Origin: Alicyclobacillus sp.
Lineage (GTDB): Bacteria; Bacillota; Bacilli; Alicyclobacillales; Alicyclobacillaceae
Assembly: GCA_023511725.1 (NCBI GenBank)
Contig: JAIMAY010000007.1
Location: forward strand, 1-64,000
Length of the DNA stretch: 64,000 bases
Reading direction: 5' to 3'
This document shows, piece by piece, positions 4,937 through 61,429 of this stretch; within the stretch, counting starts at the first letter, position 1, and each line of letters opens with the position of its first letter. The translations under genes were made by a program, and so were the position numbers. The notes under the pieces were generated by a model, which did no database searches, was not told the origin of the DNA, and worked only from the letters and a program-made list of their open reading frames with translations.

Positions 4937-4962
4937 TACGCCGGATTCCCAAATGCAAGTTT

Positions 4963-4997
4963 GTAAGCGTTTACCTGAATCCCTCGTAAACGCTTAC
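4963..4997. promoter_or_regulatory. Paired cre/LacI-type operator boxes upstream of ilvE
   Basis: GTAAGCGTTTAC (4963-4974) and GTAAACGCTTAC (4986-4997) are exact reverse complements, and each is a near-palindrome about a central CG, as in CcpA/LacI-family sites. Their centres are 23 bp apart, about two helical turns, and lie near -68 and -91 from the predicted start. In Bacillus subtilis CcpA activates ilv-leu from an upstream cre, so activation is the likely role here. A further perfect palindrome, GCCAATATTGGC, lies at 5004-5015. The inverted pair could also fold as a hairpin, but its place upstream of the promoter favours protein binding. Confidence 0.6.
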
Positions 4998-5125
4998 TTA
5001 CGCGCCAATATTGGCTTGTTAAATTTTTTTGAACACACCGCCCGCGCAAGGGCCTGAAGGCATGTCCCGGCGGCGTGCTTCAAACCGCAACTGCGTGCCG
5101 CTCGCCGCCGGGCCTGCGCCTTGGC

Positions 5126-61313: not shown

Positions 61314-61340
61314 GGTCCCCTCCCATCGGATACCCTTCCG

Positions 61341-61358
61341 ACTGAGCGCTCGTTCAGT
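61341..61358. promoter_or_regulatory. TetR operator in the tetR-icmF promoter
   Basis: ACTGAGCGCTCGTTCAGT is symmetrical at 7 of 8 positions on each side of a central CT. It covers the transcription start just downstream of the -10 box, so binding should repress tetR-icmF. Confidence 0.65.
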
Positions 61359-61361
61359 TTC

Positions 61362-61390
61362 AGTGTAGTGTAAGCGCATTCAGACGTCAA
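61362..61390 (-). promoter_or_regulatory. tetR-icmF promoter with a cre-like box in the spacer
   Basis: Minus-strand TTGACG (61385-61390), 17-bp spacer, TACACT (61362-61367). The spacer holds TGAATGCGCTTACA (61369-61382), one mismatch from the cre consensus. CcpA bound there would block polymerase. Confidence 0.65.
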
Positions 61391-61417
61391 TAGAAAACAG
61401 GCCCGTTCCCGGGCCTG
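61391..61417 (-). terminator. Terminator of the penicillin-binding protein gene
   Basis: CAGGCCCG (61398-61405) and CGGGCCTG (61410-61417) with a TTCC loop; on the minus strand TTTTCTA follows. It directly abuts the tetR -35 region. Confidence 0.82.
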
Positions 61418-61429
61418 TGCAGGGTACGC

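Follow-up and report, generated by a model that had tools for sequence, protein, structure and literature searches.

The analysis of a 64-kb window, by which we mean the whole stretch of 64,000 nucleotides presented here, makes it reasonably probable that tetR and icmF form an autoregulated operon with a TetR repressor, release by a small acyl-CoA, and a lineage-specific CcpA brake. In the mechanism that we propose, a TetR dimer would bind GANNGAGCGCTCNNTC over the transcription start point and block its own gene as well as icmF, a step supported by the conservation of this site. Release of TetR would depend on a small acyl-CoA connected with the mutase, namely, butyryl-, isobutyryl-, isovaleryl-CoA, or a related compound. 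CcpA with HPr-Ser46-P would bind a box in the promoter spacer, centred near -20, and keep the operon low when sugar is plentiful, a step that has moderate support. The operator appears to be the conserved part of this arrangement, and the CcpA box appears to have been gained or lost by lineage.

The promoter of the operon reads TTGACG-17-TACACT on the minus strand (61390-61362), and its parts are compiled in Table 1. The sequence-only reading had proposed a -35/-10 promoter, an 18-bp palindrome, and a 14-bp cre-like box within the spacer, all of which were located as claimed on the minus strand. TTGACG was the chosen -35 element in 11 of the 21 tetR-icmF promoters assessed in the Alicyclobacillaceae. 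The two genes overlap by 11 nt on the minus strand, which makes their cotranscription a reasonable prediction, and icmF adjoins tetR in 22/22 close family orthologues. The gene upstream of the terminator-like hairpin at 61397-61418 appeared by eye to be penicillin-binding-protein-like. If judged by counting only, most of the promoter parts are weak: there was a single match to the promoter pattern compared to a shuffle mean of 1.0 (3.5 kb), and 4 terminator-like sites of that kind were found versus 2.2 expected.

Table 1. Features of the tetR-icmF locus in the 64-kb window
Feature	Position	Strand	Basis or structure
-35 element, TTGACG	61390-61385	minus	sequence reading of the window
cre-like box TGAATGCGCTTACA (other strand TGTAAGCGCATTCA), -35/-10 spacer	61369-61382	minus	5/7 pairs palindromic
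-10 element, TACACT	61367-61362	minus	sequence reading of the window
Putative TetR operator, 18-mer of the sequence-only reading, ACTGAACGAGCGCTCAGT	61358-61341	minus	7/9 pairs palindromic
Putative TetR operator, refined core, GANNGAGCGCTCNNTC	61340-61355	minus	dyad centre between 61347 and 61348; conservation
Terminator-like hairpin, boundary of upstream gene and promoter	61397-61418	minus	9 pairs, 7 G-C, loop 4, T-rich tail
tetR, first gene of the operon, 217 aa	60660-61313	minus	TetR_N and TetR_C_24
icmF, fused isobutyryl-CoA mutase with G-protein chaperone domain, 1112 aa	57332-60670	minus	IcmF profile

Profile searches identified both proteins. IcmF scored 1953 bits against NCBIfam NF045497 (cut-off 1500) over positions 1-1076 of the 1076-position profile and is therefore full length; it aligned with PDB 4xc6 at 1518 bits (residues 34-1112). 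This enzyme is of interest because it naturally unites a B12 enzyme and its chaperone in one protein. The regulator matched TetR_N (PF00440) with 56.3 bits (cut-off 24) and TetR_C_24 with 45 bits (cut-off 26.4).

The TetR-operator half of our reading is strongly supported by the conservation of the putative binding site. Among 41 Alicyclobacillaceae genomes searched, this one included, 22 contained a close tetR orthologue, and the other 21 orthologues show an identity of 52-64%. The promoter counts refer to the 21 assessable promoters; locus L030 was left out because only 95 bp of its contig precede the tetR match. The operator was present before tetR in all 21 (at most two mismatches to CTGAGCGAGCGCTCAG, this genome included), and 20 of them contained GANNGAGCGCTCNNTC exactly. 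In the window the 18-mer ACTGAACGAGCGCTCAGT starts 3 nt past the -10 element, and the same distance from the chosen -10 was observed in 15/21 family promoters. The conservation extends far beyond the family. A scan of genome contigs resulted in 58 loci, mostly from Desulfobacterota, and the IcmF query matched at an identity of at least 59% in 48 of them, some of these matches being partial and at contig ends. After the removal of L120 and L121 (family members), L177 (a paralogue), and L169 and L172 (short upstream DNA), 53 distant loci were usable. In 42 of these, GAGCGCTC was found within 300 bases upstream, as compared to a mean of 0.19 and a maximum of 2 in single-base shuffles, and 39/53 had GAGCGNTC with TTGAC 34-45 nt ahead. 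The search of upstream DNA did not find the operator in four distant icmF-bearing loci (L122-L125). In an alignment of 29 sequences (the window and 28 of the 58 loci), the helix-turn-helix residues of TetR hardly vary, and such a constant reading head fits a constant operator.

The dyad common to the distant loci, GAGC^GCTC (61344-61351), lies 2 bp off the centre of ACTGAACGAGCGCTCAGT. The claim that a TetR operator overlies the start point thus stands with its centre moved by 2 bp, and the wider claim of dual control by TetR and CcpA is partly supported. The refined core (61340-61355) covers the predicted start point, which was placed near 61355 from the -10 element. We rejected the strength of the palindrome as evidence for an operator since the window contains 166 18-mers with at least 7/9 palindromic pairs; the case for a TetR site is therefore based on conservation among orthologues and not on the palindrome per se.

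GANNGAGCGCTCNNTC occurs at a single place in the 64-kb window. In this assembly as a whole, one place was found with at most one mismatch to CTGARCGAGCGCTCAG, so that the regulator looks local and a wide TetR regulon is unsupported. A search with a 14-mer at up to three mismatches was uninformative, as it returned 200 places versus 185 in the control. As a separate observation, CTGAACGAGCCCTCAG is present in G018 and in G040, each time on contigs 1 and 2 (L066, L069, L070, and L071), as a repeated element would be.

An acyl-CoA inducer is suggested by the fold neighbours of the TetR protein and by its target enzymes. The closest neighbours of the structure model (mean pLDDT 87.5) include 3him (Z 23.4), PfmR (20.8), a putative fatty-acid regulator (19.4), and AibR with isovaleryl-CoA (18.9). 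DarR and EthR are near the model as well, and the fold therefore leaves the ligand unsettled. At locus L159 (4001-8606), an orthologous TetR and a like operator precede the genes for methylmalonyl-CoA mutase and succinate-CoA ligase beta, with no icmF there, and these target genes point to a short acyl-CoA. TetR relatives without icmF were also seen at L173-L175; the next gene in L174 scores as a member of the fumarylacetoacetate-hydrolase family, and a similar-looking next gene was noted by eye in L173 and L175. The Bacillus FadR profile NF053878 gave 57.5 bits for the TetR protein, below its cut-off of 200, and we consequently rejected its membership in FadR; it may nevertheless work like FadR plus CcpA.

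We consider it unlikely that TetR responds to something other than an acyl-CoA, such as a free acid, cobalamin status, or a nucleotide. This alternative draws on the facts that the ligand cannot be read from the sequence, that the fold neighbours include DarR, which binds cyclic nucleotides, and EthR, which binds drug-like ligands, and that the FadR score is so far from its cut-off. It is opposed by the nature of the targets, which are acyl-CoA mutases (IcmF, and methylmalonyl-CoA mutase in L159), and by the titles of close fold neighbours, namely, AibR with isovaleryl-CoA and FadR with acyl-CoA. The presence of a specific operator in distant orthologues, mostly from Desulfobacterota, has a practical consequence: the ligand of TetR would reveal which acyl-CoA is served by the mutase in the cell.

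The second half of the reading, namely, control by CcpA through a cre site, has moderate support. The spacer box TGAATGCGCTTACA differs by one mismatch from TGWAARCGYTWNCW, and its other strand is an exact match to TGNAANCGNNNNCA. With 3,000 local dinucleotide shuffles, P values of about 0.001, 0.01, and 0.03 were obtained for three forms of the consensus, and the window contains 10 strand-matches at 6 places with at most one mismatch to TGWAARCGYTWNCW, as compared to none for the backward pattern. By eye, the inner 14 bases on the plus strand fit the consensus WTGNNARCGNWWWCAW printed in PMC3463425, with both outer W bases unmatched; a table row in the same B. subtilis study lists TGAATGCGCTTTCT, which is close to TGAATGCGCTTACA. 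Passages of that article give -39, -26, -16, +5, and +15 as centres of cre sites at which CcpA acts, where repression is our own reading of this action.

We scored the recurrence of the box in a 45-bp stretch preceding the operator, using shuffles and 46 orthologous promoters from outside the family as comparators. Boxes with at most one mismatch were present in 4/21 family promoters, with 0.04 expected when the hexamers were kept fixed and 0.03 with dinucleotide shuffles. At up to two mismatches there were 6/21 (0.32 expected by either procedure), and the other consensus forms resulted in 4/21 (0.23 expected) and 3/21 (0.09 expected). The six box-bearing promoters are spread over 4 of 11 genera, with the box at varying positions; the box in L036 lacks the central CG. 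The remaining 15 family promoters have no box at this threshold. None of the 46 outside-family promoters carries a box at up to two mismatches. This control was drawn from the 53 distant loci by requiring the GAGCGNTC core and sufficient DNA upstream of it; compared to the family set, its 45-bp stretch reaches 3 nt closer to the core, and the two sets differ in base composition. The bacteria of these 46 promoters are not known to have CcpA. The comparison of both sets gave a Fisher P of 5e-4, which is optimistic because sister genomes are not independent.

Two further cre-like boxes, TGTAAGCGTTTACC and CGTAAACGCTTACT, are located at 4962-4998 of the window, upstream of TTGACA-18-TAGAAT, a promoter on the minus strand (4936-4907). 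The genes after this promoter encode class IV aminotransferase, IlvD/Edd, and TPP-enzyme domains and are ilvE-, ilvD-, and ilvB-like. An activating cre site upstream of the promoter is given for B. subtilis ilvB in PMC3463425.

The machinery for this type of control is partly visible in the assembly. HPrK is present (248 bits), as are two HPr-like proteins with a KSI-G-MSL motif, L099 (HAR, KSILGVMSL) and L110 (KSIMGIMSL), whose serine we take to be Ser46. L110 has a Leu in place of the His in the HAR of L099, as in a Crh-like protein. CcpA itself was not found in this assembly, where the best match reached 261 bits; an orthologue with 371-390 bits was retrieved from 13 of 13 relatives searched, in which the best paralogue reached 283 bits. 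None of the 14 genomes passed the curated CcpA cut-off of 442. The assembly comprises 76 contigs with a stated completeness of 97.7%, in which a helicase, pepV, the S1 protein located further along, and der had no good match either. The der gene is essential. The joint absence of ccpA, its neighbours, and this essential gene makes an assembly gap the more likely cause, so that the lack of ccpA was taken as uninformative with regard to the cre site. In the relative G036, ccpA is also close to a contig end.

There remain two other ways to read the spacer box. It might be a chance resemblance, with TetR acting on the operator alone and icmF outside CcpA control in this organism, which we regard as rather unlikely. 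In its favour are the lack of any box at exactly the window's position among the 21 family promoters, the missing ccpA, and the small number of exact cre matches in this genome (3 versus 1 in the backward control); in addition, Alicyclobacillus acidocaldarius is reported to depart from classical carbon catabolite repression (PMC5901876). However, the recurrence in 6/21 family promoters and 0/46 outside promoters with 0.32 expected, the absence of ccpA together with the helicase, pepV, the S1 protein, and der, which points to an assembly gap, and the two boxes before the ilv-like genes in the same window argue against a coincidence. Genome-wide counts of exact cre matches were not decisive as a test for CcpA: two genomes of genus g10 were below their controls (G031, 1 versus 9; G033, 0 versus 6), the latter despite having ccpA. 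Alternatively, the box could be the site of another LacI-family protein that conveys a sugar-specific signal. Seven LacI-family matches are present in the assembly, and the one that ranked first when CcpA was searched for, L085, aligns with CcpA structures at 232 bits, so that a cre-like site could be recognised by a paralogue. We nevertheless consider this highly improbable, as the box-bearing genomes G007, G008, G028, and G038 carry a CcpA orthologue with 372-390 bits (G039 was outside this search), and the DNA-binding head of the G008 protein (L072) closely follows that of the solved CcpA in PDB 3oqm, which we take to be the B. subtilis protein.

We tentatively advance a broader view, which is possible but falls short of being the expected outcome. 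The tetR-operator-icmF unit would be a self-contained cassette that occurs across phyla with its geometry largely kept. Within the family, a CcpA box would have arisen independently in several lineages, in the free spacer and around -35 and -10 elements that stay fixed, so that control by glucose was added while the TetR site was left untouched. The same type of TetR would also guard methylmalonyl-CoA mutase at one locus and would then act generally as a sensor for acyl-CoA mutases that depend on B12. A fixed operator next to a drifting CcpA box would make a compact and testable example of the way in which a promoter acquires a second layer of control.

The regulation of IcmF is not described in the portions of one IcmF structure paper (PMC10481361) in which an operon and a regulator were looked for. 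The portions of the literature searched, which did not extend to the original description of IcmF (Cracan et al. 2010), mention no TetR regulator of icmF, and such a regulator may be in print elsewhere. The target enzyme of the operon matches the IcmF of PDB 4xc6 over residues 34-1112. The TetR protein shares the fold of AibR (PDB 5k7h and 5k7z; Z 18.9, rmsd 2.5 over 182 residues), whose ligand is a short branched acyl-CoA according to the entry title; the identity is 16%. The spacer box is like B. subtilis cre boxes in its inner 14 bases and differs in its outer W bases, as far as the consensus in PMC3463425 goes, and in that CcpA was not found in this assembly.

The closest known design is that of B. 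subtilis, where the fad operons are under double repression, by CcpA and by FadR, a repressor of the TetR family that long-chain acyl-CoA inhibits (PMC4525379, PMC6529636, and PMC7732839, the last of which also ties FadR to CcpA). In the lcfA-fadR-fadB-etfB-etfA operon, fadR lies inside its own operon, which is among those repressed (PMC4525379, in a passage citing Tojo et al. 2011). With this precedent, the design as such is already known. The operon proposed here would share with it the position of the TetR repressor gene inside its own operon, release by an acyl-CoA, and repression by CcpA. In contrast, the target is a B12-dependent acyl-CoA mutase, the TetR protein scores below the FadR cut-off, and its ligand is expected to be short; target and regulator lineage thus differ from the known FadR/CcpA design.
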